Of a stretch of 64,000 bases of DNA, positions 3,428 through 48,634 are shown one piece after another. The position numbers and the translations under genes were made by a program. Below the pieces are notes generated by a model. The model had not been told where the DNA came from, searched no databases, and saw nothing but the letters and a program-made list of their open reading frames with translations. Origin of the DNA: a virus. Positions within the stretch are counted from its first letter, which is position 1. Each line of letters starts with the position of its first letter. The DNA lies in IMG/VR virus record IMGVR_UViG_3300044634_004833, positions 90,942 to 154,941 of that record; one strand, written 5' to 3'.

Positions 3428-6298
3428 ATGAAGAATTTAGAGGGTTGCACATTCATCGAATGGCTCAAAATTGATGAAAACATGGTTTTTATGACAGAAG
3501 CAGAAGATACTAATCCAAAAGATACTGATCCAAAAGATACTGATCCAAAAGATACTGATCCAAACGCTAAAGGTGAAATTGCTACCGATCCAAAAGCAGG
3601 ACATACTTTATTTGTTGTTCAAAATAAAAATACGGGCAAAATTTATGCTGCAAGACCATTTTTTCCAATTGGAACAAGTAATATTTCTTTTGGAGAAAAA
3701 ACTATAAACTTCCAAAAAGGTAAGATTTCTTTTGTTCTTAAAATTGAAGAATTTAAAAAAGAATATCAATTTATGGCAGAAAAAAGCGCTCCAAACAAAC
3801 CAATAAAATTCAGTTCAAGGAAAGGTTTTATATATGATGCTGTTAATCCAATTTTTGACGGATTCATATATCCTGCGAGATTTTGCAGGATGGAATTAGT
3901 TCCCGTTATTGACGGTAAGCAGACAGCAGCAAATACTACAAACATTCCTGTTGTAGACACAACTGGATACAATCCTTGCAAAGATAAAGAAGAAGCTCCC
4001 AAACCTGGTACTGCTGGAGCTAGTGCTGCCGTTGCTAAACAACCAGAAAGCAATGATAAAAAATCTGGCGATCAAGCTGATGTAAAAGTACATGTAAATG
4101 AATTAGATGAAGATTGCAAAATGAAGCTTGGAGACCCTGAAAAGAAATTTGTTGATGAAGCTTTTTATAATGTTTTAAAATCTGGCAAGCGTGGAAATAT
4201 TGTTGTTAATGCTTTGGCAGGTTCTGGCAAAACTAGTACACTTGTTTGTCTCTGGGAAAAGTATGGAATGTATAGTGGTCAAAGATGGTTGTATTTAGTT
4301 TTTAATAAAAAAAATCAACTAGAAGCAGCAGAAAGATTTAGATCAGTTGACCAGAAAGAATTAACAAGTGCAAAAGGTGAAAAATATATTGTTAACAATG
4401 ATATTATCATTAAAACTACAAATAAGTTTTTAGGCGATGTATTGAAGCAAACCCCTGGATATCATGTTCCAAGAACTGAAAGAAGTGGCGATGCCTTTTT
4501 AGCTGGGCAAAAGTTTGATGATAAAGGAACCCCTTTGCCACTCAGAAAAAAATATGAACAAATAACAAAGATTGCAGTTGCACAAGATACAGTAGAATTT
4601 GACAATCTTGTAGAAGATTCCAGTTTGCCAAAATATGATGTTGTGAAAAACAAATTGTCATCTAATAGGGTAGACACTAGATATTCTGCTTTGGGCGGCA
4701 AAGGTTTGTCTTTTGTAAAAAGACAAAGGAAAGCTATTATCGAAGCATCGGAAAAACTTGCAAATTTATCAAAACAATTTGGGGCAGATCCATTTGATAA
4801 TAAAAAACTAGAAGAAAAATTAGATAACATTCTTGACAGATATGATATTTCTATAAACCTTAGTAAGGTTATGGAAGGTTGGTATGAAATTCCTAATAAT
4901 CGCTTTTTTTCTACGGAGTATAGGAATTTGTGGTACCACGTTAATTCTTTTATTGAAGATATTTCATTAAAAGAAAAATTAGATATTATTAAGCAGTTGG
5001 CAAAATGGCTATTAATAAAAACTGCTCCAGGCAATAAAGATTTAAATGATGCGCCACTTAAAAATGGTAAAAATATGTCGCAAATGGCAAAAACAAAACT
5101 TGGAGCAAAAATAGATTTCGATAAAGTAAGAGACTTTGACGACGACTACTGGTACTCTGGGATTAATATGGAAAAAATTAATTGGCCTAAGTATAATGTT
5201 GTTCTTGCCGATGAAATTCAAGATTTTAATTCTGTGCAAAAAGAGATGTTGAAAAAATTAGCGGAAAAAGGAGCTACTATTATAGGTGTTGGGGATCCCA
5301 ATCAAGCAATTTATAGATTCCGTGGTGCAGAAGCTAGTAGCTTTGATGATATTGTAGAAACATTGAAAAAAGATAATTTAAGTATCCAAGGAACAGATGA
5401 TATCATTAAAGGAATGCCTACAAATTACAGAAGCAGACAAGCAGTTATTGATTATGTAAATAAGGCAACAAAAGTAAATAACTTGGTTCGTGGCAAGAAG
5501 TACGAGGATGACTATCATGGGGAAGTTACAACTAACAAAAGCGTAAAGGATATGTTGTCTGAAATTCAGGGATATATCAAAAATGGGGAATTAGACAAAA
5601 GTACGGCAGTTATAGCTCGAACAAATGCTCCTTTGGGGGCTCTTATGGTTCCTATGTTAAAAAGAGGTATACCATTTGCAGCTATTGGTACTGATTTCAT
5701 TTCAGAAATTAAAAAAGAAATGCAAACAATATTAGATGATCTTGGTATTGATGAATATTATGATTTAAATTCAATACTTGGCGATTCAGAGGATAATCAA
5801 CCCAATTATGATGATGAAAATTCAGGCGAATACGGCACAAAAGGAGAGAATAGTCAATTAGAAAAATTTTACTTAAATAAAGTTAGACAATATCAAGGCA
5901 TTCCAAGTAAACAAAAAGTACTGAAAGAACTTAGAAAAAATATAGATACAATGGCGCAAGTTATCTATGCTGCTATGGAAGAGGATGACTCAATAAAAAA
6001 TATGAGTGGTGTATATGGCTGGCTTGAAGATAAATTCAAGAAGAATATTGTTGATGTCAAAAAATTGAAAAAATCAGATTTGAAAGATAAAGTAATTTTG
6101 ACAAGCGTTCACAAAAGTAAGGGGTTTGAATTTGGCAGAGTATATCTTTTAGATATTGAAAATTTCCCCCATGCAATGGCAACTAGAGATGAAGACAAAG
6201 AACAAGAAGAAAACGCCAAATATGTTGCCATGACCAGAGCAGAAGAAGAACTTCACATTCTAAAACAAAATCCAGACGAAAAATGGAAAGACATTTAA
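3428..6298 (+). CDS. UvrD/Rep-type SF1A helicase with N-terminal cargo tag
   Basis: ATP-dependent 3'-5' DNA helicase of the UvrD/Rep class by motif. Walker A is AGSGKTST (~residue 262), motif II DEIQD (~594), motif III GDPNQAIYRFRGAE (~621), then NYRSRQ, VHKSKGFEF (~893) and VAMTRAEEE (~933). At 956 residues it exceeds most UvrD proteins because ~250 residues precede Walker A. That extension opens with the tag FIEWLKIDEN, then MTEAED (a plausible prohead-protease site), then a DTDPK repeat. The start at 3428 has GGAG nine bases upstream and brings the tag to the N-terminus; an upstream in-frame ATG has no ribosome site. Inferred role: packaged in the head and injected with the DNA. Confidence 0.93.
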   Translation: MKNLEGCTFIEWLKIDENMVFMTEAEDTNPKDTDPKDTDPKDTDPNAKGEIATDPKAGHTLFVVQNKNTGKIYAARPFFPIGTSNISFGEKTINFQKGKISFVLKIEEFKKEYQFMAEKSAPNKPIKFSSRKGFIYDAVNPIFDGFIYPARFCRMELVPVIDGKQTAANTTNIPVVDTTGYNPCKDKEEAPKPGTAGASAAVAKQPESNDKKSGDQADVKVHVNELDEDCKMKLGDPEKKFVDEAFYNVLKSGKRGNIVVNALAGSGKTSTLVCLWEKYGMYSGQRWLYLVFNKKNQLEAAERFRSVDQKELTSAKGEKYIVNNDIIIKTTNKFLGDVLKQTPGYHVPRTERSGDAFLAGQKFDDKGTPLPLRKKYEQITKIAVAQDTVEFDNLVEDSSLPKYDVVKNKLSSNRVDTRYSALGGKGLSFVKRQRKAIIEASEKLANLSKQFGADPFDNKKLEEKLDNILDRYDISINLSKVMEGWYEIPNNRFFSTEYRNLWYHVNSFIEDISLKEKLDIIKQLAKWLLIKTAPGNKDLNDAPLKNGKNMSQMAKTKLGAKIDFDKVRDFDDDYWYSGINMEKINWPKYNVVLADEIQDFNSVQKEMLKKLAEKGATIIGVGDPNQAIYRFRGAEASSFDDIVETLKKDNLSIQGTDDIIKGMPTNYRSRQAVIDYVNKATKVNNLVRGKKYEDDYHGEVTTNKSVKDMLSEIQGYIKNGELDKSTAVIARTNAPLGALMVPMLKRGIPFAAIGTDFISEIKKEMQTILDDLGIDEYYDLNSILGDSEDNQPNYDDENSGEYGTKGENSQLEKFYLNKVRQYQGIPSKQKVLKELRKNIDTMAQVIYAAMEEDDSIKNMSGVYGWLEDKFKKNIVDVKKLKKSDLKDKVILTSVHKSKGFEFGRVYLLDIENFPHAMATRDEDKEQEENAKYVAMTRAEEELHILKQNPDEKWKDI
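3507..3566 (+). repeat. 15-bp tandem repeat encoding (D-T-D-P-K)n
   Basis: Four consecutive copies of a 15-base unit (gatactgatccaaaa and variants) in the helicase gene, giving a flexible acidic linker right after the predicted protease site. Likely variable in length by slippage. Confidence 0.85.
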
Positions 6299-7047
6299 AG
6301 TTTGTGTTGGGCGAGGATTTGCTTAACTTGATTTAGTTTTGCAATCCATCCATTATAAACAGAAATCCAATGGTTTTGCCAACCATGTGATCCAGTATTC
6401 TTAGATGCTGGCTTATTTAAATAATATTTGTGTGTAAGTTTATCGTATTCCAAGCCTGATATAATGCTGTCAATATAATTGCTTGATATTTGTTTTTTGG
6501 CTAAGGTTTGTAGATTGCCTTTCATTATTTCTTGAAATTTTGTTTTAAGTATTTTATCTTTATCGAGCTCTTCTAATTGTTCTTTGCTGAATCTATTTGT
6601 TCCCTGTACATTATCATGTAACTTCTTGTCTTCTGCTGCTTGTTCAACTACTTCTTTTGTTTGAATTCTCATTACATCTTGAACTTCATTTGGAAACAAA
6701 GTTTTAAATGCATTGAATGTTTTGTTTTTCTTATCAATTTTTAAAATTTCTTGTTGAATTTTTGTTGCAGTGGCTTGGTCAACTGGTTCTGCATTAGCCT
6801 TTTTCTTTTTTCCTGCTGCTGCTAAAGGCGTTCTTTGTTGAATTGATAAATTTTGATTAGCAGATTGGTTTGTAGGTGTTCCACCACCTAATCCAGAAAT
6901 TGCTGCGCCAGCTAATCCTTTTGCTGCGCCACCTATTGCTGATAATACGTTTCCTATGAATTCATTTACTAAAGACTCTTCTTTAATTTGGCTAATTAGC
7001 TCAGAGTCTTTGGAATTTACATATTTTTCAAAAGATATCTTTTTCAT
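6295..7047 (-). CDS. Tagged putative virion cargo protein
   Basis: 250 residues of unknown function. The N-terminus (ISFEKYVNSKDSE) fits the recurring tag. A glycine/alanine-rich stretch (residues ~33-55, SAIGGAAKGLAGAAISGLGG) could insert in a membrane or form a glycine zipper; a basic AAGKKKKANAE segment follows, then charged helices. The C-terminus has SHGWQNHWISVYNGW. A TATAAATA box lies on the same strand 18 bases upstream of the start. The stop overlaps the helicase stop on the other strand by four bases. Confidence 0.8.
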   Translation of the reverse strand: MKKISFEKYVNSKDSELISQIKEESLVNEFIGNVLSAIGGAAKGLAGAAISGLGGGTPTNQSANQNLSIQQRTPLAAAGKKKKANAEPVDQATATKIQQEILKIDKKNKTFNAFKTLFPNEVQDVMRIQTKEVVEQAAEDKKLHDNVQGTNRFSKEQLEELDKDKILKTKFQEIMKGNLQTLAKKQISSNYIDSIISGLEYDKLTHKYYLNKPASKNTGSHGWQNHWISVYNGWIAKLNQVKQILAQHKL

Positions 7048-7065: not shown

Positions 7066-7073
7066 TATTTATA
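7066..7073 (-). promoter_or_regulatory. T4-late-like promoter TATAAATA (minus strand)
   Basis: Perfect octamer on the minus strand 18 bases upstream of the ATG at 7047, followed by AAGGA. Confidence 0.6.
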
Positions 7074-10100: not shown

Positions 10101-10108
10101 CATAAATA
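10101..10108 (+). promoter_or_regulatory. Late-like promoter CATAAATA
   Basis: One-base variant of the T4 late octamer, 16 bases before the chosen ATG at 10125, with GGGGGA between. Confidence 0.5.
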
Positions 10109-10124: not shown

Positions 10125-11471
10125 ATGACTATGATACTTGAATTTGCACAATGGTTAGATATAGACGAAGCTCGTCGTTTCAACATGGGTAGTGTTGGCA
10201 GTGCTGCCGAAGGCAGACAAGCCGGTAGAGATGCAAATGAAATAGTTACATGTATATTAAGTAAAAAACTTGGCACAAGAATTAGAGATTATCCTCCCAG
10301 ATCTACTCAAGATTTAGCTGGAATCGATGCAAAATTTTTGGATGGTGAATTTGCAAATCAAAACTTGCAAATTCAAGCAAGAGCATCTCATGCTGCCCAA
10401 GATGACTTTGCAATATCATTAGCCGTTAAAGAAAAAAATGTAGGCAAATTTCTAGGCAGCAAAATTACAGACATAATAAAGCCAAACCCTAATGCAGAAT
10501 ATTTGACAAAATGGCATCAAAAAACAGCCATTCATGCTTTAATGAGCGCTGATGACAATATGATTTATTTGGCCAAATGGGAAGATCTAGAATCGTTAGC
10601 CATGAAGGCATTTGAAAATTGGGAAAACAATCACAACAATATTATAGCCTTAACGATTTCGTTGCCAAAGCCTGCAAATCAAATGGCTGGAGCTTTAGTT
10701 CCACAAGGACATCAAGAAAAGGACCCAGATAAACTACAAGGCTCTATGAGCATTTCTTTAATAGCTAATGTCGATGGTAAAGACATAGAAGCAAATGCTG
10801 ATTTTAACATATCCTCAGATGTAGATTCCACAATTCAAAGTATAAAAAATGGTTTCGAAAATGTTTTAGGTGAAGGCAGTGTAATTTTCGTCAAGAAAGT
10901 ACCCATGCCTTTTAGACTTAGATATATTGTAAAATTTAAAGAAGGTATTGAAATTGATGGAGACCCAGTTTGGAACAGTATTAAATACGAAAATAATGAG
11001 CCAATTAGAGGACTAAGAATTTATTTCGAAGCTCCTCATGGCAAGTCAGGAACATTTAATACGGAAAGAGATACATTCGTTGATCCAGAAACACATATTA
11101 CTGTAAGATTGACTAGATCAACTCAAGGACCAGATTATAACCAGCAAACAGTTTATAATCCTATGGTGTTCATACCAGCCAAAAGCGTACCAACAAAACA
11201 AATTCCAATAACTCAAGAAGATATTGACCAATGTAAAGAAAAACCAGAAGTTGTAATTGATACTAGAAATGATATGGAAAAGGCTGAAGATGAAGCCAAT
11301 GAAAAAGGCCAAGGAACTGTTAAGATAATGTCTTCGAATCCTAAAAATATAAAAAGTAAACAAGAAGAGATTGAAAAATTTGCTAGAAGAAACAATCTAA
11401 ATGTTTCGTGGCCAGATAAAAAAGATGATAAAAATTTAGGGAATACTGCAATTTACACAAAAAAGGCATAA
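10125..11471 (+). CDS. Tagged unknown protein, 448 residues
   Basis: The N-terminus MTMILEFAQWLDIDEARRF fits the recurring cargo tag. ATG 10125 is preferred over 10113 because GGGGGA lies four bases before it. Residues ~55-90 contain DLAGIDAKF and LQIQARAS, whose acid/lysine spacing faintly recalls PD-(D/E)xK nucleases; the match is too weak for a call. The C-terminal 100 residues are charged. It is followed after one base by another tagged gene at 11473, so the pair is probably co-expressed late. Confidence 0.82.
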   Translation: MTMILEFAQWLDIDEARRFNMGSVGSAAEGRQAGRDANEIVTCILSKKLGTRIRDYPPRSTQDLAGIDAKFLDGEFANQNLQIQARASHAAQDDFAISLAVKEKNVGKFLGSKITDIIKPNPNAEYLTKWHQKTAIHALMSADDNMIYLAKWEDLESLAMKAFENWENNHNNIIALTISLPKPANQMAGALVPQGHQEKDPDKLQGSMSISLIANVDGKDIEANADFNISSDVDSTIQSIKNGFENVLGEGSVIFVKKVPMPFRLRYIVKFKEGIEIDGDPVWNSIKYENNEPIRGLRIYFEAPHGKSGTFNTERDTFVDPETHITVRLTRSTQGPDYNQQTVYNPMVFIPAKSVPTKQIPITQEDIDQCKEKPEVVIDTRNDMEKAEDEANEKGQGTVKIMSSNPKNIKSKQEEIEKFARRNNLNVSWPDKKDDKNLGNTAIYTKKA

Positions 11472-11472: not shown

Positions 11473-12024
11473 ATGAAAAGTTTTTTAAAGTGGCTTAATG
11501 AAGAAAATGAAGGTTTGTCTTTTTCTTTTGATCCTATGAAAGCACAAAAGAGCAACGAGCCAAAGTTGAATCCAAGAGTAGAAGAAAAACTAAACAACGC
11601 AGTTTTGGCTCTTACTCCAACTATTCCCGGCGTTCCTTTTGGAAATCTAAAAAGAAGCCAATCATCTCAATACTCTGGCATGACTTATGAAACTAATCTT
11701 GATGATATTCTTAAAACATATGTTGATATGATTCATGATCTCAATAAAGATGTTAAGATGAAAACAGGAAAGCAAAGCCTATTATTAAATTATTTGAGTG
11801 CCAATACGCCAGAAGACTATATGAACAAAATTGAAAACAAAGTGGCTGAATTAGGAAAAGGATATCTACAAGCATTTCAAAGAATTCAAAAATATCATCA
11901 ACTATTTGTTGATATCAAAAATAAGTATGGAGATAAAGCCCCTCAAATTAAGGTGACGATCAGAAAGCATCGTCCAGAAGATGAGCCTTTTGTAGAACAA
12001 AAGAAAAATCCCAGTAGCTTTTAA
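11473..12024 (+). CDS. Tagged unknown protein, 183 residues
   Basis: Begins MKSFLKWLNEENEG, one of the cleanest copies of the tag: aromatic, tryptophan, leucine, then N-E-E-N-E as possible protease recognition. The rest is helical and lysine-rich without known domains; the C-terminus is basic (TIRKHRPEDE). Function unknown; inferred head-internal protein. Shares a transcript with the gene one base upstream. Confidence 0.8.
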   Translation: MKSFLKWLNEENEGLSFSFDPMKAQKSNEPKLNPRVEEKLNNAVLALTPTIPGVPFGNLKRSQSSQYSGMTYETNLDDILKTYVDMIHDLNKDVKMKTGKQSLLLNYLSANTPEDYMNKIENKVAELGKGYLQAFQRIQKYHQLFVDIKNKYGDKAPQIKVTIRKHRPEDEPFVEQKKNPSSF

Positions 12025-16935: not shown

Positions 16936-17670
16936 ATGCGTAGTTTATTTGATTTTTATGAAAGCAAAAAGTCTACTCTTGAGTACCATGAGACTCTTAA
17001 TCCAAAACTATGGATCGGAGAGAAGCTTAAACCTCAAATTAGACAAAAACTTCTTGAAATAGCTAATTTTTGGGCAGAGCATGCTTTAATTCCTGAAGAT
17101 GCAATACAGGATATAACATTGGTAGGCGGAAATGCCAATTTTAATTATACAGATTTGTCAGATGTTGATTTGCACCTCTTAATAGACAAATCAAAAATAG
17201 CAGAATGCGAAGATAAAATACTAGATGAATATCTAAAAGATAAAAAAGCTATATGGGGTCTTACTCATGACCTTCAGATTTATGGCATACCTGTAGAGAT
17301 ATATGCACAGGACATTTCTGAAAAGACAAGCAAAGACCAAGGGGTTTTTTCAGTAAAAAACAACAAATGGGTTAGCAAACCAACATATAAAAGAATTAAT
17401 ATAAACGATCCTATTATTCAAAAAAAAGCAAGATCTATAGAAAATGTTATTAATTATTTTATGCAAAATAAAGTAGATAATCTTCAATTGTTAAATAATT
17501 TTAAAGATAAAGTAAGAAACATGAGAGGCACTGCCATTAAAAGAGGTGGTGAATTTAGTGTTGAAAATTTAGCATTCAAAGAATTAAGAAATAAAGGTCT
17601 GCTTGATAAATTTACTAATTATATTGTAAGCATCGAAGATAAGAAACTTAGTTTGGGGGAAAATGATTAA
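16936..17670 (+). CDS. Nucleotidyltransferase-fold protein with cargo tag
   Basis: 244 residues. Residues 62-82 (LVGGNANFNYTDLSDVDLHL) carry the pol-beta-fold signature: a G-rich turn then D-x-D (SDVDLH), with a third acid likely in VEIYAQD. The preceding LEYHETLNPKLW and IANFWAEHA are shared with phage proteins I recall annotated as nucleotidyltransferases. The N-terminus MRSLFDFYESKKS fits the cargo tag loosely. Substrate unknown; family members add nucleotides to RNA, proteins or antibiotics. It overlaps the next gene by eight bases. Confidence 0.75.
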   Translation: MRSLFDFYESKKSTLEYHETLNPKLWIGEKLKPQIRQKLLEIANFWAEHALIPEDAIQDITLVGGNANFNYTDLSDVDLHLLIDKSKIAECEDKILDEYLKDKKAIWGLTHDLQIYGIPVEIYAQDISEKTSKDQGVFSVKNNKWVSKPTYKRININDPIIQKKARSIENVINYFMQNKVDNLQLLNNFKDKVRNMRGTAIKRGGEFSVENLAFKELRNKGLLDKFTNYIVSIEDKKLSLGEND

Positions 17671-17902
17671 ATTCAATGATTGGATACACACAAGAGAATC
17701 AAGTGCCTCGACCAGAAACAAATGGATGGCTGCTTTAGGTCTTCAGCCAATGTATTCAGCAGATGTGTTTGGACATGCAACTCCAAGACCTTGGGTTGCA
17801 GAAAAACTACTTAAAAATTTAAAGAAGAAAAAGAAGAAGAAGAAGAAGAAATCTAAACACAAAAAGCACAAAACCTTTAAGGAGTTTTTGGAAAACAAAT
17901 AG
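17663..17902 (+). CDS. Small poly-lysine protein with tag-like motifs at both ends
   Basis: 79 residues. The N-terminus IKFNDWIHTRES is the cargo tag; the C-terminus TFKEFLENK matches the same pattern. Between them lie a short neutral region and a run of ten lysines extended by SKHKKHK. Such a tail would bind and condense DNA non-specifically. Inferred role: packaged DNA-associated protein, comparable in concept to T4 internal proteins. The AAG-repeat coding tract could slip. Overlaps the upstream gene by eight bases. Confidence 0.8.
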   Translation: MIKFNDWIHTRESSASTRNKWMAALGLQPMYSADVFGHATPRPWVAEKLLKNLKKKKKKKKKKSKHKKHKTFKEFLENK

Positions 17903-18277: not shown

Positions 18278-18520
18278 TTAGTCTTTTCTAATGCCTTGTA
18301 CTTTTGGATTGGAATCCATTTTTTTTATTATGTTCAAAGCTTTCCAAGGAGCCTTTTTGGAAAGATTCTTTAACCTAACATGGTCTTTAGCATCAATTGT
18401 ATAAGTATAAAGTCTATCCCCTATGTAAACCATTACACGGCCATCGCTGAACCAGCCAGCATATTTAATTTGTTTTTCATCGGCTTCAAAAAGCCATTGT
18501 TTAAATTGTAATTGACTCAT
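18278..18520 (-). CDS. Small tagged protein
   Basis: 80 residues. MSQLQFKQWLFEADEKQ is a textbook copy of the tag; LFE-A fits the T4 gp21 cleavage rule (hydrophobic-x-E before a small residue). After it, IKYAGWFSDGRVMVYIGDRL and YTYTID form a small beta unit loosely like the KTSC fold. The basic C-terminus ends in KD. Function unknown; probable virion cargo. Confidence 0.78.
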   Translation of the reverse strand: MSQLQFKQWLFEADEKQIKYAGWFSDGRVMVYIGDRLYTYTIDAKDHVRLKNLSKKAPWKALNIIKKMDSNPKVQGIRKD

Positions 18521-18601: not shown

Positions 18602-19630
18602 ATGCTTATTGACAAGCCTTCATTACAATTTAAACAAAACAAACACACAACCTATGTTGGCGATTCTTTGCAATTTTTAAAAGCACTTCCAGAAGACCCT
18701 ATTTTCAATCTTATCTTCACCTCCCCTCCGTACAATCTTGGCAAGACCTATGAAGATAAAGTTGAAATTGGAGAATATTTAAAGCTAATAATTCCTATTT
18801 TAGAAGAATCATTTAAAAGACTTGCTCCAGATGGCTCGTTGATTCTTCAGGTAGGCAATTATATTACATCTGGAAAGACTAGAGTTCCACTTGACTACAT
18901 ATTCTTTCCATGCTTAAGCCAATTAGGATTTATATTTCAACAAAGAATCATATGGCATTATCGACATGGCCTTCATGGTAAAAATAGATTTGATGGAAGA
19001 CATGAAGCTGCTATGTGGTTCACCAAGAACGAAGACTATAAGTTCAATATTGATCCTGTAAGAGTTCCACAACTTTATCCCAATTACAAGAACAAAGGTG
19101 TTAAAACAGCAAACCCTATGGGTAAGAACCCTAGTGATACTTGGGAAATGGAAGCCCCAGAACTTATGACGGCAGATTTCATTGATAACATTCCTAATGT
19201 TAAGAAGAACCATTGTGAAAAAGTTGATCTTGTAAACCCTGTTTCAGCAGATGAAACCCATCCTTGCCAGTTCCCTGTAGGTCTGGCAGAACGATTCATT
19301 TTGTCAATGACAGACAAAGGCGACGTTGTTTTCGACCCATTTGCAGGAGTTGGATCCTGTGGGGTTGCAGCAGTTATGAACGAAAGAATTTATCTTGGTT
19401 GCGACTTAATTGAACGATATGGACTAACTGCCGACCAAAGAATAGAAGATCATCTTCAAGGAAAGAGGAAGTACAGGCCTCATAACGCTAAGATTCCCGA
19501 TCCTGCCAATAGTAGTTGTGGCCCTAATCCCAAACCCAAGAAATCAGACCATAAACAAGCGCAAAAGCCAACCTCTGCCTCGTTTGATTGGTCAAGCATC
19601 CAAATAAATTTGAACGATTTAGTCAAGTAG
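18602..19630 (+). CDS. Beta-class DNA methyltransferase (SPPY type), copy 1
   Basis: 342 residues. Motif IV is TSPPYNLG (~residue 39) near the N-terminus and motif I is DPFAGVGS (~246) near the C-terminus, the order of beta-class amino-methyltransferases. TSPPY is typical of N4-cytosine enzymes, though N6-adenine cannot be excluded. The target-recognition region lies between. Start at 18602 (GGGG seven bases upstream). It is about half identical by eye to the next gene; this copy has an extra segment (PELMTADFIDNIPN) and a proline/serine-rich tail. No dedicated restriction gene is adjacent. Confidence 0.93.
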   Translation: MLIDKPSLQFKQNKHTTYVGDSLQFLKALPEDPIFNLIFTSPPYNLGKTYEDKVEIGEYLKLIIPILEESFKRLAPDGSLILQVGNYITSGKTRVPLDYIFFPCLSQLGFIFQQRIIWHYRHGLHGKNRFDGRHEAAMWFTKNEDYKFNIDPVRVPQLYPNYKNKGVKTANPMGKNPSDTWEMEAPELMTADFIDNIPNVKKNHCEKVDLVNPVSADETHPCQFPVGLAERFILSMTDKGDVVFDPFAGVGSCGVAAVMNERIYLGCDLIERYGLTADQRIEDHLQGKRKYRPHNAKIPDPANSSCGPNPKPKKSDHKQAQKPTSASFDWSSIQINLNDLVK

Positions 19631-25370: not shown

Positions 25371-25776
25371 GTTTGCAGAGAACACAAACCAAGCATTTGT
25401 AAATAATGATTTTGCAAATTTATTTTTATTTTTGCCTAAGCCAGATATAGCAATTAAAACAAAAGACTTCAGAAAAACAGTTTCCGAATTATTTGTTAAA
25501 AATCAATATAAACAAGTTGATAGATCTTGTTTTTTCATAAAAAATAATATTGGCATAATATTTCAAACTGGCAACAAAATGAATGCTGCAACTGATTTGC
25601 TATACCTTCAAAACGAATATGTTCTACAAAATATTTATGGAGCAATTTATTGCACCCCTTCGAAAAAATGGAGAGATATTTGGTCGGAAGGAGTTATAGA
25701 AGCTGATAATGTAATTGGCTTGTTAAATGATTGCAAAGCAGTAATAACTTTGCCCGTCACACTATTCGAATTTTAA
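25294..25776 (+). CDS. Unknown protein overlapping the DUF3883-like gene
   Basis: About 160 residues; it may start at 25264 or 25294, both inside the upstream gene. The downstream part (KTVSELFVKNQYKQVDRSCF, FQTGNKMNAATDLLYLQNEY) is ordinary folded protein and clearly coding past 25370. The overlap of ~75 bases is long, so a later non-ATG start is possible. Not recognised; last gene of the putative module. Its end overlaps the convergent gene by 15 bases. Confidence 0.62.
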   Translation: MFVGSTITTDSTIFPIKLPQLYHSHRFAENTNQAFVNNDFANLFLFLPKPDIAIKTKDFRKTVSELFVKNQYKQVDRSCFFIKNNIGIIFQTGNKMNAATDLLYLQNEYVLQNIYGAIYCTPSKKWRDIWSEGVIEADNVIGLLNDCKAVITLPVTLFEF

Positions 25777-28293: not shown

Positions 28294-28364
28294 GAGATAA
28301 TCTATTTATTTAGCAACTATCTTAAAATTAATCTATTCTAAATAAATAATACAGGAGAAATACT
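28294..28364. promoter_or_regulatory. Divergent late-type promoter region
   Basis: Between two divergent late-type genes; CTAAATAAATA occurs once on each strand (plus copy near 28338-28348), consistent with divergent late-like initiation. The plus-strand gene also has CAGGAG. Confidence 0.45.
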
Positions 28365-37222: not shown

Positions 37223-37230
37223 CATAAATA
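37223..37230 (+). promoter_or_regulatory. Late-like promoter CATAAATA
   Basis: Only four bases before the ATG of the tagged gene at 37235, with no room for a ribosome-binding site if initiation follows the T4 rule. Confidence 0.5.
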
Positions 37231-37234: not shown

Positions 37235-37573
37235 ATGCAAACTTTTAACGAATGGGTTAAGACTAAAAAAGAATCTTTCGAACCCGAACATTGGTTGGCC
37301 GACACAGGAGCAGAAGCTAAGCCAAGAGGAGATTCCCACCCAGCTAAAGGTGGTTGGCTAAAACCTAAAATACAAGTATTAGACGATACACTCATTATTA
37401 AAAAACCAAAGTTTGCTAAAGCAGATATTGCTAAAATGGCAGAAGAATGGACTAAGAAGTTAAAAGATATAGGACATATAGTAGAATTAGAAAATAAACC
37501 AGACGAATCAATACTAAAATTCTATAACAATGAAAAAGCCCAAAGAGCTTTCCATTTTATTAATAAACTTTAA
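37235..37573 (+). CDS. Tagged unknown protein, 112 residues
   Basis: Begins MQTFNEWVKTKKESFEPE, the tag followed by a charged stretch. A glycine/proline-rich region (EAKPRGDSHPAKGGW) is followed by a compact alpha/beta domain (KIQVLDDTLIIKKPK, VELENKPDES). Not recognised. It is single-gene, convergent with the next and two bases from its stop. Confidence 0.78.
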   Translation: MQTFNEWVKTKKESFEPEHWLADTGAEAKPRGDSHPAKGGWLKPKIQVLDDTLIIKKPKFAKADIAKMAEEWTKKLKDIGHIVELENKPDESILKFYNNEKAQRAFHFINKL

Positions 37574-38780: not shown

Positions 38781-38854
38781 ATGAAGTATTTAGGTCTCTG
38801 CGATGAAAAATTGAGTTTTCTTAGCCCCCACAAAGTTGTTTTTTGGCAAGCATA

Positions 38855-38866: not shown

Positions 38867-39670
38867 ATGCAAAAAATAATTTCTCTTTATCATGCAACAA
38901 CCAAACAATCTGCCGAATCTATATTAAAAACAAAGACTCTTAAGGCAGACAAAGAAAGACATGTATATGTTTCCAATTCTCCTACTATAACAAATGATTA
39001 TGGAGATGGCACACTACTCAAAGTATATGTTGATCCCAGAAAATTGGAGCTTGATGATGAGTTCCCCACGGGGAGAAGGGATTACAGACTTCCTTCCCCC
39101 TATAGACCAGAAAAAATAGAACTTGTTTTTTCATACAAAGAATGCTTTAATATTATTAGCCTAGGAGAAAAACCCATGAAAAGTTTCAACGAATATGTAA
39201 TTCTTAAAGAGAGTCGTGCGACTGTTGACATAAATGAGATTGCCAAAGATTTAAAATTTGTTCGTACTACGAAAAAGAAGCTAATGTACAAATATGTAGA
39301 TTCAGATCAGAATATGCCTCCTTTGTCTTATACTGTTGCTAAAAACCAGACTCTTCATACACCTCTAGATCAAAGCACTAGACAAGTAAAAGAAGGTGAT
39401 ATATTAATGAGTGGCCCCAAAGGAGAGGTATATAGTCCTTCTGCTAAAAAGTTCGCCACAGATTATGTCGGAGAGATCGGTAGTACAGTTCACCCAGAAC
39501 AATCAGAAAGGATAGTTGCCCAATATAATGGTGAGCCAATCACCTTTGTGCCAAGTTGGGGAGGAACTATGATTGCCGACCCAGGTGATTACATAGTAAA
39601 AGAAGGTGAAGGCAAATATTATAGAATCGAAAAAGAAGTTTTTGATATAACTTACAATCAAATTAATTAA
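38867..39670 (+). CDS. Two-part protein: ART-like N-terminal domain joined to a tagged C-terminal part
   Basis: 267 residues. Residues 1-100 (SLYHATTKQSAESILK, VYVSNSP, LLKVYVDPRKLELDDEF) follow the pattern of small ADP-ribosyltransferase-like or RNA 2'-phosphotransferase-like folds: Y-H-x-T, then A-x-x-I-L. At residue 104 an internal Met starts MKSFNEYVILKESRA, a full cargo tag, and this ATG (39176) has AGGAGA nine bases upstream. The gene may therefore yield a long and a short product, or be a fusion of two genes. The C-terminal part (EGDILMSGPKGEVYSPSAKK) is unrecognised. Confidence 0.72.
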   Translation: MQKIISLYHATTKQSAESILKTKTLKADKERHVYVSNSPTITNDYGDGTLLKVYVDPRKLELDDEFPTGRRDYRLPSPYRPEKIELVFSYKECFNIISLGEKPMKSFNEYVILKESRATVDINEIAKDLKFVRTTKKKLMYKYVDSDQNMPPLSYTVAKNQTLHTPLDQSTRQVKEGDILMSGPKGEVYSPSAKKFATDYVGEIGSTVHPEQSERIVAQYNGEPITFVPSWGGTMIADPGDYIVKEGEGKYYRIEKEVFDITYNQIN

Positions 39671-40594
39671 ATGGTTTTTTATTACACATATTGGGAGTTT
39701 GAATATCTATATGGAAAAAATAGGTTTAGCCATCATGTGTTATTATTGTCGGCAACACTATTAATTCATGCTTATCCAAATTCAACTATTAATATTTTAG
39801 TATATGATTTTATTCCAAAATCTTTAGATATATTAAAATCTTTGCCACAAGTAAATATAATTTTATTAAAATGCTATGTTGATAAAAAACAAGAAGAAAA
39901 TCAATTATTAAATATAAATCTTACTAATGATAAAACTTTCACATTTCTATTGTCTAAGCCAATTGATGTTTTTAATTTGGCAAAAGAAAAAAATGAAATT
40001 TTTATATTACTTGATGTAGATTTTTTTGTTTTTAATAAATTTCAAAATTTAGATATTAACAAGATAGGATTTTTATTTTACAACAACAATTTAGATTCAA
40101 ATGTAAATACTGGTTTAATAGTTTCTGGAACACAATCTTTTGAATGTAAATACTTTTTCGATTTATATGAAAGTTTCCTAAAATTATTTGATAATCAAAA
40201 TCATTTAATTAAAGAAAAATTGGTATCTTTTGCTTATCCCCACCCATCAGCACAAGAAGAAATAATCATTTCAAGCATAGTTAAAAAATTTACAGAACTT
40301 AAAAACGTTGTTTTCTACGACATAACATCAAATAATCATCAATTGTATTGTTGTAACATTTATTTAAATTATCAAAATAATATTCATACAATGAATATGG
40401 ATAAAAAAAGAATATGTTCGGTTATGTGTCAATTAGAACATGTAAAGAAAGTTTTAAATAGAAAAGATTTTTATATAATAAAAAAAGAACTAATAGAATA
40501 CTCATACGAACAAGAGTTTAGTCAAGAAGAAAAAAGACTTATAAAAAACATAAATGATTCTATGCCTGTCAAAGATAAAAGAATCTTTCTATGA
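39671..40594 (+). CDS. GT-A-fold glycosyltransferase-like protein
   Basis: 307 residues. EIFILLDVDFFVFNKF (~115) supplies a D-x-D motif after a hydrophobic strand, and NTGLIVSGTQSFECKYFFDLY (~153) fits the acceptor-side region of GT8/nucleotide-diphospho-sugar transferases. The N-terminus (YYTYWEFEYLYG) and a long helical tail are unrecognised. The ATG follows the previous stop directly, so translation is coupled. Very AT-rich even for this region. Donor and acceptor unknown. Confidence 0.72.
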   Translation: MVFYYTYWEFEYLYGKNRFSHHVLLLSATLLIHAYPNSTINILVYDFIPKSLDILKSLPQVNIILLKCYVDKKQEENQLLNINLTNDKTFTFLLSKPIDVFNLAKEKNEIFILLDVDFFVFNKFQNLDINKIGFLFYNNNLDSNVNTGLIVSGTQSFECKYFFDLYESFLKLFDNQNHLIKEKLVSFAYPHPSAQEEIIISSIVKKFTELKNVVFYDITSNNHQLYCCNIYLNYQNNIHTMNMDKKRICSVMCQLEHVKKVLNRKDFYIIKKELIEYSYEQEFSQEEKRLIKNINDSMPVKDKRIFL

Positions 40595-40999
40595 TTCGCA
40601 TTCCCATTTGCTATATTTTTTCCCTCTGGAATTCCTTAGCATCTTTGGCTTGCACTTGCCAATATTGCAAGCATTAGCTTTGTTCCACCCATTTACACAA
40701 AGCTTAGCACAAGATGATACTCTTTCACTTGACTTGACATCAATACACTTGCCAATTAAATTAGAACGAGTTAATGGGTCTAAACCACTACTAGTCATTT
40801 TCTTTTCAAAAGAATCATAGCCAACATCGAAAGCACTTTTCATATACCCAGGAAGTGCTCTTCCCATATTAACAACATTGTCCAACGAAGATTGCATTCC
40901 CAATTCGTCAGCACCAGGTAGGCCAGTATACATAGATGCAACATTCCCAACTATATTTGCCAAACTTTCATTTTTATCCAACCATTCTTTAAAATTCAT
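40589..40999 (-). CDS. Tagged cysteine-containing small protein
   Basis: 136 residues. MNFKEWLDKNESLAN is a clean tag. The middle is neutral helical (NIVGNVASMYTGLPGADELG); the C-terminus has six cysteines (KCIDV, SSCAKLCVNGW, ACNIGKC, WEC), suggesting disulfides or metal binding. Its stop overlaps that of the glycosyltransferase gene. Confidence 0.78.
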   Translation of the reverse strand: MNFKEWLDKNESLANIVGNVASMYTGLPGADELGMQSSLDNVVNMGRALPGYMKSAFDVGYDSFEKKMTSSGLDPLTRSNLIGKCIDVKSSERVSSCAKLCVNGWNKANACNIGKCKPKMLRNSRGKKYSKWECES

Positions 41000-42081: not shown

Positions 42082-42462
42082 ATGAAAAGTTTTATGCAGG
42101 TAATGATGGAGATGAATAGCGGCCTTGTTTCAATTAATGATGCAAAAGCTAAAAGATTGGTAACACACTACATGAATCCGATACCCAAGCTCAAGGCACA
42201 GGAAAAAAGCCTTGGACTTACTCCAAAAGAAATGGATGCTTTAGGCCAAATTGAAAGAGCTTCTCAAAAAGTAGGCATGAATTTGCGGAGTAGCTTAGTA
42301 AACATTCAAGATGTATATACCTATTTAAATTTATTAGGTGATTTGCAAAAAACTGATTTAAAGAAAATTGCAAATTATATTGATAATATTCGCCTGAGTG
42401 TAGAGGATGATTTAATGCCACATATTAAAGAAGCAAACCCCAGAGCCGATATGGGCAATTAA
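42082..42462 (+). CDS. Tagged unknown protein, 126 residues
   Basis: ATG 42082 is chosen because GAGGA lies nine bases upstream and it exposes MKSFMQVMMEMNSG, a degenerate tag. The rest is helical (PKLKAQEKSLGLTPKEMD, DLKKIANYIDNIRLSVED). Not recognised. The ~120 bases before it contain an A/T-rich stretch and a C-run but no clear promoter. Confidence 0.7.
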   Translation: MKSFMQVMMEMNSGLVSINDAKAKRLVTHYMNPIPKLKAQEKSLGLTPKEMDALGQIERASQKVGMNLRSSLVNIQDVYTYLNLLGDLQKTDLKKIANYIDNIRLSVEDDLMPHIKEANPRADMGN

Positions 42463-43040: not shown

Positions 43041-43048
43041 CATAAATA
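43041..43048 (+). promoter_or_regulatory. Late-like promoter CATAAATA
   Basis: Five bases before the ATG of the tagged metalloprotease gene at 43054. Confidence 0.5.
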
Positions 43049-43053: not shown

Positions 43054-44244
43054 ATGAAAAACTTTATAGAATTCTTGGCGGAAAAAGACCCTGCTCTATT
43101 ACAAGAATATATATATTTAGCTAGCCTATCAGAAAACTCATGGCATAAATACTTGCTTCCCTTAATGCTAGGAGCGCAGGCAACTGCTCAAGCAGGAACT
43201 CCTACAGAACTAAAACAAAGACAAGATTATAATCAAAGTCTTAAAGATCCACGAAATTCCAGAAACGAAAAAGAATTACATAGCCGAATGTTTACCCAAG
43301 GAATAACAGTCGATGACTTAGTTGGTCGCAAATTTAGTTGGTCAAAAACTGATAGAAATAAAGATACAATGACCAAACTAGACCGCCTAGATCTTCCTGA
43401 CGCTATGAGAAAAGGCATCCCAAGTGAACATGAAGAAGAATACAAACAAGAAGATATCTTGTTCAAAAAAGTAATAAATCCTTACGATTACATAAGATCG
43501 ACACAGCATGATAAAGAAAAATTTGACAGAGATTACCAGAAACTAAATACGGATAATCCTAATGACAAAGGATTTTCCACCTTTAAACATAAATTCAACA
43601 ACCAAGTATTAATGTATGTGGTGAAGGCAAATGCCCTTAGTAGAGTTGAACCTGGTGCATCTGGATATCATACTGTTACAATCAACCCAGATACTGGAAA
43701 AAAAATTGAGATGATAGTTCTGCCAGATACCGCCTTTAAGACATTGCCTTCTGGAAACTCCTTGGGCGAATTAACAGATGATGGAACGGCACTTTTAGCA
43801 CATGAGTTAAGACACGGCACACAACGAAGTGAAAATGTGCCAGTCGGCAAATATCAGACCGATAACTCAAACTATCATCATTATATGCACGACCCTATGG
43901 AAATTGGGGTCAGATTAGCGGCTACCAAGAATTTAATGTCTCCTGATACAATCTTGCGCTTGACTAAAAATTATCCTAAACACCAAGAAATTGCAAAAAA
44001 TATATTACAAAAAGCCAGCGAAAGCGAAAAAGAATTGATGAAGATGATTATGAATCCCGAAGGTGAAAACGCAAATACCTTGCATTTCATTAGAGATAGA
44101 TTAAAAGTTATTAATAAAGATGTAGATTCTCTCTTCCAATTTTACGATACGCTCAAGGGTGCTGAAAAAGCAAATTTTATGAAACAACTAATCGATAATT
44201 ATGATAATGTTGTAAAAAATAATACCAAAACATCCACTACTTAA
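43054..44244 (+). CDS. Tagged zinc metallopeptidase-like protein
   Basis: 396 residues. MKNFIEFLAEKDPALL is a tag with LAE-K. ALLAHELRHGTQ (~250) is an HExxH zinc motif, and ~30 residues later HDPMEIGVRLAATKN supplies a glutamate likely to be the third ligand, as in gluzincins and many phage zincins. The N-terminal ~190 residues are charged (FSWSKTDRNKDTM) and may be a propeptide or substrate-binding part. Inferred: injected or head-internal protease, or one acting in cell-wall passage. Substrate unknown. Confidence 0.8.
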   Translation: MKNFIEFLAEKDPALLQEYIYLASLSENSWHKYLLPLMLGAQATAQAGTPTELKQRQDYNQSLKDPRNSRNEKELHSRMFTQGITVDDLVGRKFSWSKTDRNKDTMTKLDRLDLPDAMRKGIPSEHEEEYKQEDILFKKVINPYDYIRSTQHDKEKFDRDYQKLNTDNPNDKGFSTFKHKFNNQVLMYVVKANALSRVEPGASGYHTVTINPDTGKKIEMIVLPDTAFKTLPSGNSLGELTDDGTALLAHELRHGTQRSENVPVGKYQTDNSNYHHYMHDPMEIGVRLAATKNLMSPDTILRLTKNYPKHQEIAKNILQKASESEKELMKMIMNPEGENANTLHFIRDRLKVINKDVDSLFQFYDTLKGAEKANFMKQLIDNYDNVVKNNTKTSTT

Positions 44245-44279: not shown

Positions 44280-44287
44280 CATAAATA
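44280..44287 (+). promoter_or_regulatory. Late-like promoter CATAAATA
   Basis: Five bases before the ATG at 44293. Confidence 0.5.
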
Positions 44288-44292: not shown

Positions 44293-45696
44293 ATGAAATT
44301 CAAATTATGGCTCATTGAAGCCGAATACAAAGATGTAAGAAATACTTACAAAGACTTGATGGATTACTTAGAAAAAACATCAGAAGAAGTATTCGTAAAC
44401 TTTAGCGATAGACCCAAAGGCTTGTTTGTTGCCAGCAAAAAAACCTCACACTATGACCCAATTGGGATTTACGGATTCGGCAAAGAATACATGCAAAGAA
44501 AAGATAATTCTAACCAAGGCTTCTGGAGCATGCCTTACATCACAGTATTTAAACTGAAGCCAGATGCTAATGTACTTGACTTAAGCACCATTACAGTTAA
44601 TACCGCCAAAGAAATGCTCCAAAAAATGGACATAGAAGATTATATCGATAAACCATACCACAGAAAACCAGCCAATAACTCCGGTGGAGCACTCCTATGG
44701 AATACTATGGAAAAATACATAGCCACCAATAGGTTACATAAAAATACCGCATGGAATACACTATTCAAAAAAATAGATGTAGATGCCGTTAGAGATACAA
44801 ATTCCATTATACACCACAATGAACCAGACCAAATCATAGTCCTAAACCCATCCAAAGCAGCAATCGTCAAAACAATAGAAAAACCACTCAATACTTGGCA
44901 GCAAAAAATACAAAAACAAATCTACGATTTGTTAACTGAATTGGGAAATAAATATCTTAAAGACTTCAAGATTACAAGCACCAGAAGAGGCTCAGCCGAT
45001 ATAACTAAAAATTATCCCAATTACGAACTTGCTGCCAAACCCGATATTTCAATGCTAGCCATTTCAAATAACCCAGAACTACCCTTGATCATTGAAATCT
45101 ATTACACCGCTTATAACGGCAAATTAACAGGACATATAAGCCGAAAAGCCCCTCTCGACCGCCTGTTCAGAACCGAAATAAAACCAGATCAATTGTCAAG
45201 TGACCAAATTAATGTTGTCGATGTAGATTTCCCCAACATGAAATCACAAATGATAGAAGCCCTTGATAAAATTATACAAGAATTTACTCCATCGCAAATG
45301 GGCGAAACTAAAAATATACACCAAAATATAATCGACCAACTAAACTTTGCTAACTTCAAAACAAAATATGAAAATGGAGATTATAACTCCATAGCACAAT
45401 TCAAAACAGGAAATTTCCCCGCCGCTCTTAAAGTCATCACCAGCCCTAGCGAAAATGGCGTAACCACTAACCTAAACTTATCCTACACCGCTAGAGATAT
45501 AAACTGGGGTAAAAATAGAAGATACAAAATTCCTTTCGAATCAATAACAATTAATTCCGATGAGGATGCCAAAGATATAAAGTCCAAATTTAAAACCAAA
45601 ATTAATACAATGATTGATAATATTCGTAATCATGAATTATCATATATGTATGACAATGACCTACATGCACTAAAAAATATGGAAAAATTATTGTAG
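44293..45696 (+). CDS. Tagged unknown protein, 467 residues
   Basis: MKFKLWLIEAEYK is the tag with LIE-A, an ideal T4-type protease site. Residues ~30-100 contain VFVNFSDRPKGLFVASKK, DPIGIYGFGKEYM and a strand VFKLKPDANVLDL, an arrangement I associate with uncharacterised phage proteins that may be ADP-ribosyltransferase-like; this is weak. The C-terminal half (~290-467) has PLIIEIYYTAYNGKLTG and many lysines. Function unknown. Confidence 0.8.
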   Translation: MKFKLWLIEAEYKDVRNTYKDLMDYLEKTSEEVFVNFSDRPKGLFVASKKTSHYDPIGIYGFGKEYMQRKDNSNQGFWSMPYITVFKLKPDANVLDLSTITVNTAKEMLQKMDIEDYIDKPYHRKPANNSGGALLWNTMEKYIATNRLHKNTAWNTLFKKIDVDAVRDTNSIIHHNEPDQIIVLNPSKAAIVKTIEKPLNTWQQKIQKQIYDLLTELGNKYLKDFKITSTRRGSADITKNYPNYELAAKPDISMLAISNNPELPLIIEIYYTAYNGKLTGHISRKAPLDRLFRTEIKPDQLSSDQINVVDVDFPNMKSQMIEALDKIIQEFTPSQMGETKNIHQNIIDQLNFANFKTKYENGDYNSIAQFKTGNFPAALKVITSPSENGVTTNLNLSYTARDINWGKNRRYKIPFESITINSDEDAKDIKSKFKTKINTMIDNIRNHELSYMYDNDLHALKNMEKLL

Positions 45697-45727
45697 GTGC
45701 CAGAACACGAGAAAAATAAGGACAAAT

Positions 45728-46273
45728 ATGAATAATTTTACCGAATGGCTTCAAATAAACGAAAACACAAATTGGGGACACGGTGGATGGAAAATTCATT
45801 TGCGAACAGGAACAGATAATAAAATTAGAGATCGAGCTTATCAAATAGTTCAAGAAATTATTAAAAATAATAAAAAAAATTGGCCTTCTAAAAAACTTGG
45901 TGGCGGCGAAGCCGATGAAAAAGATATTACCATTTATTGCGGACCTAAATCAGAAGCTAATCAAGCAGCTAAAGCAATATCAGAGCACCCCGAATTATCC
46001 AAATTACTTTCAAAACCAAGTGAAGAGATGTTGCGAGATGATGTAGAAATATTACCCGGCACAAATGTGTATGGAAGATTTAATGCTTCACTTTTAATGG
46101 CAATGACAAAAGGTGTTGAATTTCACCAATATGGATGCAAAGGTCATTCAATGCTAAATTCTTTTGTAACAAGATCTATGACAGATAAAGAAAACTTTGA
46201 TAGAACAAAAGCTTGCCAAGATTCCTACAGGCTTCTTAAAAACTTATTCGGCAAAGATTTTACAGACAATTAA
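45728..46273 (+). CDS. Tagged unknown protein, 181 residues
   Basis: MNNFTEWLQINENTNWG is the tag. It continues with GHGGWKIHLRTGTDNKIRDR, then alternating helices and strands (DITIYCGPKSEANQAAKAIS) and an MTKGVEFHQYGCKGHSMLN region with conserved-looking Cys/His. Possibly an enzyme; not recognised. AAGGA precedes the ATG. Confidence 0.78.
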   Translation: MNNFTEWLQINENTNWGHGGWKIHLRTGTDNKIRDRAYQIVQEIIKNNKKNWPSKKLGGGEADEKDITIYCGPKSEANQAAKAISEHPELSKLLSKPSEEMLRDDVEILPGTNVYGRFNASLLMAMTKGVEFHQYGCKGHSMLNSFVTRSMTDKENFDRTKACQDSYRLLKNLFGKDFTDN

Positions 46274-47184: not shown

Positions 47185-48005
47185 AACAATACTACTTACA
47201 TAAGTCTGGCGGATTAGGAGATTGCATCTGGGCATACTTCAAACTATATCACCACCTTTTAACAGAACTTAAAAAAAATGAACCAAATTCACATGTAACC
47301 TATGTCGCTTGCTCAAATAACACCCAAATCCAAGAATTTTATAAAACAAATAAACTAATAGACCAAGCTTTTTATTACCCAATGTCAGATTACCACCACC
47401 AAACATGGAAAAAACATACAGAAAATAAAATATCCCTGCTAGATGCAATACAAGTTCCAGAACAACCACCAGCTAATCAATTCTGGCTCACTCCTGAAGA
47501 ACAACAGTTTGCACATAATGTACTTAATATGGGCAAATTCGTCGCACTACACCCTTTCGGTGGTACACACGAAAGAACTATGAATAGGAATGACTTCTCC
47601 ATCAACCAACTAATAACGTCTATTATAAATTTAAATTATAATTGCATAGTATTAGGAGGTAATGATGATCAAAGAAAATGTAACTTGCAAAAAATAAACT
47701 TCAACCACCCAAAATGCATCAATATAATCGATAAATTCTCATGCAGATTACACTCATTCTTCACAGCACATGCTAACGCTTTCATAGGAGTAAGTAGCTG
47801 CTACTCTGTAATAGCATCCCTATTCAAAGTCAAAGGACTTATTTATTACCCCACCTCACTTAAATGGTGGCAACAAGGAACACCACCACAAATAGGTATA
47901 GATGGATTCTCCCAAGCTTTCAGAGATAGCGGATTCTGGGCAGAATTCTTCGAACAACCATCCACTACAACAACACAACTAATAACAAACTTTCTAAATA
48001 CTTAA
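47181..48005 (+). CDS. GT9-like glycosyltransferase (heptosyltransferase type)
   Basis: 274 residues. SGGLGDCIWAYFKLYHHL opens with the G-x-G-D signature of the GT-B GT9 group. ALHPFGGTHERTMNR (~130) matches the diphosphate-binding HP-G segment, and AFIGVSSCYSVIASLFKV (~212) the C-terminal nucleotide-sugar region. Related in layout to the 14729 gene. The likely action is sugar addition to surface glycan, of either host or virion (inference). Confidence 0.78.
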   Translation: MKQYYLHKSGGLGDCIWAYFKLYHHLLTELKKNEPNSHVTYVACSNNTQIQEFYKTNKLIDQAFYYPMSDYHHQTWKKHTENKISLLDAIQVPEQPPANQFWLTPEEQQFAHNVLNMGKFVALHPFGGTHERTMNRNDFSINQLITSIINLNYNCIVLGGNDDQRKCNLQKINFNHPKCINIIDKFSCRLHSFFTAHANAFIGVSSCYSVIASLFKVKGLIYYPTSLKWWQQGTPPQIGIDGFSQAFRDSGFWAEFFEQPSTTTTQLITNFLNT

Positions 48006-48049
48006 TATATAACTTTGAATAAATTCCCTTGCCAAGATAAAATACCCAA

Positions 48050-48634
48050 ATGATAACATTCAAAGAATTCATGGAACTAAATCCACCCCTAAACCTAATA
48101 CTAGAAGACCTAGAACCACAAGAGTCTACCATAGTACAAAAACTAAAAACCATTGCCACAGATATTATAAATAATATAAAAACTTCCCTAAAAATACCAG
48201 ATCAAAAAACCCTAGACACCCAAGTACCCAAACTACTCAATAAACTCAAAAACAAATATAGCAAATACGCAAATGAAGACTATGATCTCTCCCTACTCTC
48301 AGGATTCAACTTCTTTAACCAAATAGATCACCTAAAAGAATTCTGGTCAAGTGTAGGAAAAGCTATACTAAAAGCTATAGTAGCTATAATCAAATGGCTA
48401 TTCACTAGCCTAGCTAACCTAATCAAAGCATCACTCAACATGATCAAAGATTCTTTCTCAGAAGAAGGATTCTTCAAACTATGTGTCGTATGGGTGGCCC
48501 CAGCCATCTTAGCCTCCCCAGTTCTAGGTCTACAAACTATCTACGGAATAAACAACCTCATAGGACTAACACCATTCATCGCTTGGGTCATATGGCATGT
48601 ATTCGTCGCTCCAGCATTAGATAAATTGGATTGA
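48050..48634 (+). CDS. Tagged membrane protein
   Basis: 194 residues. MITFKEFMELNPPLNLILED is the tag with an acidic follow-on. Residues ~103-125 (AILKAIVAIIKWLFTSLANL) are amphipathic or membrane-active; ~145-190 contain two hydrophobic segments (FKLCVVWVAPAILASPVLGL, LTPFIAWVIWHVFVAPAL). Like the 37575 protein, it combines a head-targeting tag with membrane segments, suggesting a role at genome entry (inference). Followed by a strong terminator. Confidence 0.8.
   Translation: MITFKEFMELNPPLNLILEDLEPQESTIVQKLKTIATDIINNIKTSLKIPDQKTLDTQVPKLLNKLKNKYSKYANEDYDLSLLSGFNFFNQIDHLKEFWSSVGKAILKAIVAIIKWLFTSLANLIKASLNMIKDSFSEEGFFKLCVVWVAPAILASPVLGLQTIYGINNLIGLTPFIAWVIWHVFVAPALDKLD

Follow-up and report, generated by a model that had tools for sequence, protein, structure and literature searches.

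Why so many proteins encoded on one stretch of viral DNA should begin alike and then continue into different bodies is the question raised by the window analysed here, a 64,000-nucleotide stretch that represents bases 90,942-154,941 of a linear 154,941-bp IMG/VR record (IMGVR_UViG_3300044634_004833), here named G000. The shared N-terminal tags are very probably capsid-targeting sequences (CTSs) of the type known from phage T4, carried by a jumbo or huge myovirus on a large, enzyme-rich proteome that would be packaged into the head, cleaved and injected. For the G000 phage itself, these three steps are suggested by sequence and by analogy.

In its strict form the core of the tag is F-x-x-[FWY]-hydrophobic, and in its relaxed form [FLY]xx[FWYV][hydrophobic]. 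With N-termini translated at the coordinates and strands given below, the relaxed core fits all 18 open reading frames (ORFs) that a preliminary description of the window had listed as sharing a tag, and the strict core fits 16 of the 18, which bears that description out; the N-terminal strings quoted in it are also exact at their positions. The two ORFs off the strict core start at 16936 (L-x-x-F-Y) and 42082 (F-x-x-V-M). The weakest members of the set are 42082 and 17663, the latter a lysine-rich ORF of 79 residues that overlaps the preceding gene, and those at 39176, 44293 and 40999 start on an internal ATG or unlike the automatic start call. The observation holds, but the set is larger, as a scan of the rest of the contig found about 11 additional tagged genes outside the window or across its edge, for a total of about 29. 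Tags elsewhere in G000 include MQSLNFKRFFEEAD, MITNFKDWLKIQE, MENFINWLKKEKE, MKKFSIWMEE, MTFKEFIKMDE and MFVDISFAEWLLFSE, and further examples of this set are MKFKLWLIEAE and MNFKEWLDKNES. The bodies had been described as unrelated, which holds in general: an all-against-all comparison of the G000 tagged proteins found one leader on unrelated bodies, with a single paralogous pair formed by 25762-28293(-) and a 933-residue tagged protein (G000:90507-93308) that crosses the left window edge, so that the window holds its truncated 3' part.

Counting relied on strict forms of the tag, as the loose pattern matches too readily by chance. In the whole contig 19 genes have F-x-x-[FWY]-h-x(1-3)-E, where h is hydrophobic, at the N-terminus, compared with a mean of 0.36 (maximum 2) in windows taken from the interior of these contig proteins, and F-x-x-W-h occurs within the first 16 residues in 15 of the 186 contig genes against 0.56 expected. 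At the DNA level the tag cores share a mean identity of 50% over 30 nucleotides and both Phe codons are in use, so recent copying of a single sequence does not account for them. The exact T4 spacing is found in just 7 genes of G000, and at the N-terminus of zero genes in T7, lambda, a T5 segment and an SPO1 segment.

The first ten residues of T4 internal protein III (IPIII) suffice for packaging (Mullaney and Black 1996, as reviewed in PMC9026906). Within this CTS, residues 4 and 7 govern targeting and residues 8 and 10 govern processing, and the two functions are separable (PMC9026906). IPII and IPIII both begin MKTYQEFIAEA, as read from their sequences, and the G000 tags have their aromatics spaced as in this CTS, followed by a hydrophobic residue and, in many cases, x-E. 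A hydrophobic-x-E lies just past the core in 22 of 29 tags compared with 70 of 300 (23%) internal aromatic-hydrophobic pairs (p=3e-9). Within the window this site is present in 14 of the 18 ORFs, no more than 12 residues from the second aromatic, but it is absent at 7047(-), 17663, 37235 and 40999(-). The tagged bodies are, moreover, more basic than the other contig proteins (median +2.5 vs 0 per 100 residues, p=0.002). As a separate observation on T4 itself (AF158101), the gene 61.1 product (18966-19130(-)), annotated in that record as hypothetical, begins MKTFKEFIKEDMVAGD, which is CTS-like and has the exact IPII/IPIII spacing.

Judged by its gene content, G000 belongs to a clade of jumbo or huge phages that encodes a gp21-type S77 protease. 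Two relatives, G001 and G002, have a tagged metalloprotease in common with G000 and both end at TerL, and a search with the TerL of G002 led to a large clade with contigs of up to 532 kb. The Pfam family Peptidase_S77, which represents the gp21-type prohead protease, is found in 10 of the 11 clade records tested and additionally in LR756511. In the sole tested record without it, G004, TerL is positioned about 4 kb from the contig end, so the head module may simply be missing. G000 has 27 proteins in common with G005 (343 kb) and 44 in common with LR756511 (595 kb, an uncultured phage), mostly in one syntenic block. In both of these the S77 gene lies among core, scaffold and capsid genes that are ordered much as in T4, and the portal gene was identified in G005. 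Components of the T4-like head module (portal, core protein, gp21, scaffold, gp23 and TerL) are present in G003, G005, G007 and G008. LR756511 also has a second, diverged S77-like match (242621-242989(-)) beside the head-module copy.

The tags are also found in relatives. LR756511 encodes 31 tagged proteins vs 5 expected, and the same tags occur in relatives of 53-56% guanine-plus-cytosine (GC) content. Between orthologues in phages of very different GC, the tag and the body are kept while the linker changes. For example, MIKFYEYLQVINE, MEFKEWLRLNE and MLNFKDWLISE each precede GLYP in G000 (59978), G005 (136128) and G007 (110822), the helicase tag is MKNLEGCTFIEWLKIDE in G000 and MDTLTFKSWLTLTNE in G005, and QFKQWLFEADEKQIKYAGWF at window position 18520(-) matches SFTTWLTENQKQRIQFAGWF in G003. 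In one core family found across the clade, the proteins of six phages have MxxxFxx(Y/F)xxx(K/R)E, behind which the linker varies. A DNA-level search with the window returned no relative, sequence searches against the PDB gave nothing useful, and back-translated pattern scans of viral contigs returned no relatives of 35139 or of the helicase at 3428, yet G005 has a helicase orthologue.

A connection to virions is provided by the nucleotidyltransferase-like protein of the window (16936-17670(+), MRSLFDFYESKK, phrog_36119), for which orthologues are encoded by T4-like cyanophages, Caulobacter phage Cr30 and Maribacter phage Molly. Most of the orthologues have tag-like N-termini of their own, and S77 is encoded in 4 of 4 records checked. 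The orthologue in cyanophage S-CREM2, ORF156, is part of the virion proteome determined by mass spectrometry (MS), as given in Table 3 of the S-CREM2 paper (PMC10665884). When all S-CREM2 ORFs were scored, seven had the T4-spaced pattern in their first 16 residues and 5 of the 7 were MS-detected (Fisher p=0.009 overall and 5e-4 among non-structural proteins); the N-termini were known before the pattern was fixed, the pattern itself being that of T4. The tagged and detected proteins include an S-adenosylmethionine (SAM) hydrolase (MKDFDSFLEE), an APH/ChoK-like kinase (MKRFDAFLTEEE) and a cytidylyltransferase (MKNFSSFLTEAD). An S-CREM2 ORF annotated as a Cas9-like nuclease has the motif, as FASFMAE, among its first 30 residues. 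In phage S-SZBM1 a tagged cytidylyltransferase (MRFRQFIIEA) is MS-detected and a second tagged ORF, of 105 residues, is not. The serine/threonine kinase gene of S-CRM01 begins MISFDQFLSEKKS, and a kinase is reported in the S-CRM01 virion, as cited in PMC10665884.

The enzymes among the G000 tagged bodies are a UvrD helicase, the nucleotidyltransferase-like protein, a zincin-like HELRH protein and a putative ArdC-N plus HExxH protein. The last (G000:13827-15179) matches PF08401 (ArdC-N) at E=0.0012 and PF06114 at E=3e-4, in each case narrowly missing the curated cut-off, contains a HELAH motif and matches the phrog_87 metalloprotease at 1e-6; two further IMG/VR contigs (L246 and L247) carry copies of it that are 100% identical. 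AlphaFold models of this ArdC-like protein and of the protein at 44293 were too poor to use (predicted local distance difference test scores of 40 and 49, respectively), and for 44293 the idea of an ADP-ribosyltransferase is not claimed. PADLOC matches of the 3428 helicase to GajB are read as generic UvrD similarity. In the relatives, the tag of G007:182372(-), G008:111563(-) and G002:35728(-) leads directly into the Walker A motif of an AAA_33 P-loop kinase, and G005:262132-262686(-) and G008:23220-23768(+) are tagged proteins with Acb1/2'-5' RNA ligase (2H phosphoesterase) domains, Acb1 acting against the cyclic-oligonucleotide-based anti-phage signalling system (CBASS). Other tagged bodies in relatives are a flavin mononucleotide reductase, a radical SAM protein, a phosphoribosyltransferase-like domain and a SNF2-type helicase. 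As the T4 internal proteins are injected inhibitors of GmrSD restriction enzymes that are alike in their leader alone (PMC12373910), an anti-defence and host-takeover cargo is a natural reading. The original proposal of tags like those of the T4 internal proteins is supported by the CTS positions mapped by mutation, the S-CREM2 enrichment, the protease of the clade, the tags kept between orthologues and the enzyme bodies.

When the 80 nucleotides before each of 31 curated tagged genes were compared with those before 144 other genes in an unbiased 6-mer scan, TAAATA ranked at the top, being present in 18 of the 31 vs 16 of the 144 (p=7.7e-8). The list of 31 includes two genes that were later dropped, G000:72865, which belongs to the phrog_858 family, as does T4 rI.-1, and G000:73528, the N-terminal pattern of which differs. 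A similar though weaker excess is seen in G002, G003, G005 and G007. The motif resembles the T4 late promoter, TATAAATA, and suggests that the tagged genes may be expressed late.

A number of observations weigh against a T4-type CTS on a cleaved and injected proteome. The G000 contig is a fragment without a detectable S77 protease, capsid, portal or terminase gene, and 7 of the 29 tags have no near hydrophobic-x-E. Taken alone and genome-wide, the exact T4 spacing is not significantly enriched in G001, G002, G003, G005, Cr30, Molly, S-SZBM1 or T4, where it is hidden by a low number of tags or by variable spacing. Primase-like proteins of the relatives match the tag, perhaps through their own N-terminus. 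Several TAAATA copies lie just 4-6 nucleotides before the ATG (for example at 43043-43048, 44282-44287 and 37225-37230, all on the plus strand), which is odd for a leadered promoter, and the sites near the ATG often have no clear Shine-Dalgarno sequence; given this distance the motif may start leaderless mRNAs or have another role. In S-CREM2, ORF156 is detected without a clear tag core and ORF30 and ORF175 match the pattern but were not detected, so that the tag is neither necessary nor sufficient for detection in the virion; the authors also state that MS presence may include carry-over (PMC10665884).

Among other explanations, the closest retains the tag as a head-packaging signal that is uncleaved, or cleaved in some proteins, with the acidic residues forming part of an amphipathic docking helix. 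The seven tags without a near site, the varying position of the site and the separable nature of targeting and processing in T4 (PMC9026906) all agree with this idea, but the enrichment of hydrophobic-x-E past the core and the S77 protease of the relatives make it unlikely. It is much less probable that the tag addresses a different phage or host compartment, such as the membrane, a replication compartment or a phage nucleus. In principle, a short amphipathic segment at the N-terminus could do so; however, tagged proteins are enriched in the S-CREM2 virions, the clade combines T4-like head genes with an S77 protease, and import into the phage nucleus is described as proceeding without conventional terminal signals (PMC13282480).

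Least credible of all, and to be considered highly improbable, is the view that the resemblance arose by chance, through biased composition or because translation initiation in an AT-rich genome favours proteins that begin MKxF. Whilst low GC favours the codons for K, F and N, and loose patterns match at a moderate chance rate, the strict forms exceed their expectation many times over, tags persist in the GC-richer relatives and between orthologues, the DNA of the tag cores is diverse, and exact matches are absent from T7, lambda and the T5 and SPO1 segments.

If the tags are indeed T4-type CTSs, the aromatic pair F-x-x-W/F/Y would recruit the tagged protein during prohead assembly by binding to the scaffold core. 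Once the shell has closed, a gp21-type S77 protease would cut past hydrophobic-x-E, freeing the body among the DNA. The bodies, including the helicase, nucleotidyltransferase, zincin, ArdC-like protein and many without an assigned function, would then be ejected with the genome and may act early on host defence, DNA or metabolism. A broader proposition, held with moderate confidence, is that in huge T4-headed phages a short, swappable N-terminal address loads dozens of enzymes (helicases, ArdC-like antirestriction, Acb1-like anti-CBASS, P-loop kinases, nucleotidyltransferases and zincins), representing a general injected-effector code that can be read from sequence across S77-protease myoviruses. 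Injected phage proteins are hard to find, yet as they act before phage gene expression the outcome of early conflicts with restriction, CBASS and other defences is decided by them. If the tags have this role, the injected repertoire of uncultivated huge phages would become readable from sequence and unassigned genes could be located to the head and timed to entry. The SAM hydrolase, kinases and cytidylyltransferases in cyanophage virions, for which the authors could not exclude carry-over, would be accounted for as well.

Along the window, the 3' part of the 933-residue protein (MHFKQFILLSESLNK), which starts upstream at G000:90507, occupies 1-2367(+), and is followed by the UvrD-type helicase (MKNLEGCTFIEWLKIDEN, 3428-6298(+)) with a late-promoter-like TAAATA at 3399-3404(+). 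Tagged proteins without an assigned function are encoded at 6295-7047(-) (MKKISFEKYVNSKDSE, TAAATA at 7066-7071(-)), 10125-11471(+) (MTMILEFAQWLDIDEAR, TAAATA at 10103-10108(+)) and 11473-12024(+) (MKSFLKWLNEEN). After the nucleotidyltransferase come the weakly tagged lysine-rich ORF (17663-17902(+), MIKFNDWIHTRES), which has a second tag-like string, TFKEFLE(NK), at its C-terminus, and 18278-18520(-) (MSQLQFKQWLFEAD), the G003 homologue of which has QSFTTWLTEN before the same body. Again without an assigned function are the 843-residue 25762-28293(-) (MNITFKKWIKLWETLD, TAAATA at 28307-28312(-)), the 687-residue 35139-37202(-) (MQKDNLTFREWFLLSEID), 37235-37573(+) (MQTFNEWVKTKKES), the 401-residue 37575-38780(-) (MLEFSKWLNENTG, TAAATA at 38787-38792(-)) and 40589-40999(-) (MNFKEWLDKNESL). 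The tagged protein at 39176-39670(+) (MKSFNEYVILKESR) has a weak, sub-threshold PGDYG-domain match, and 42082-42462(+) (MKSFMQVMMEMN) has a weak tag. The zincin-like HELRH protein (43054-44244(+), MKNFIEFLAEKDP) has orthologues in G001 and G002 that begin MKNFIEFLAQRDP. It is followed by 44293-45696(+) (MKFKLWLIEAEYK), with orthologues beginning MSFKVWLERSE and MSFKTWLERSE, and 45728-46273(+) (MNNFTEWLQINEN), both without an assigned function, and by 48050-48634(+) (MITFKEFMELNPP), the G002 orthologue of which begins MISFEDWRSLSQ. The late-promoter-like sites of 37235, 43054 and 44293 are those described above as close to the ATG.

Outside the tagged set, the small proteins G000:73528-73794(-), G002:87636-87899(-) and G002:87982-88371(+) have a recurrent N-terminal (F/L)(L/I)xL(A/S)G(L/V)(L/I)xE, which may be another leader type. 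An untagged 1418-residue protein (28365-32621(+)) matches the PHROG 'regulator of chromosome condensation' (RCC1 repeats), and upstream of it very large untagged proteins of 1024 and 3102 residues are encoded within G000:42340-54946.

The mechanism itself is known from T4; what is new is how widely it seems to be used, a cargo rich in enzymes, its extension to a clade of huge phages and the agreement with cyanophage virion enzymes that had lacked an explanation. A literature search, with preprints and most subscription papers outside its scope, turned up no description of tags like these in huge phages. The CTS of T4 IPI-IPIII has an aromatic at positions 4 and 7, a hydrophobic residue at 8 and E at 10, and, as in G000, is a common leader on unrelated basic bodies in a lineage with a gp21-type protease; late expression, as the promoter-like motif would imply, may be a further likeness. 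T4, however, has three internal proteins plus Alt, whereas a single 155-kb fragment, G000, has about 29 tags. In these the second aromatic is often Trp, the distance to hydrophobic-x-E varies and the cargo includes long enzymes. In the cyanophages S-CREM2, S-SZBM1 and S-CRM01 there are virion enzymes, of which the S-CREM2 SAM hydrolase, kinase and cytidylyltransferase bear the same tag and the nucleotidyltransferase has its orthologue in the window, but there are few tagged genes per genome, and the accessible part of the S-CREM2 paper (PMC10665884) draws no link between virion presence and an N-terminal tag. The giant phages phiKZ and SPN3US also package and cleave many head proteins, as inner-body and ejection proteins, with a gp21-related protease, although their propeptides are mostly longer than 100 residues (PMC5694885) in contrast to the short, T4-like tags of G000. 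Phage P1 similarly uses an N-terminal segment, that of DarB sufficing to load a reporter into heads, but the Dar proteins have no common consensus (PMC9024508), unlike the single consensus across the G000 tags. Finally, the ArdC-like protein of G000 pairs ArdC-N-like and HExxH domains, a theme of antirestriction transferred with the DNA that is shared with polyvalent proteins (PMC5512222); it differs from these in being routed, as its tag would suggest, by a CTS-like sequence, and its domain matches are below the curated cut-offs.

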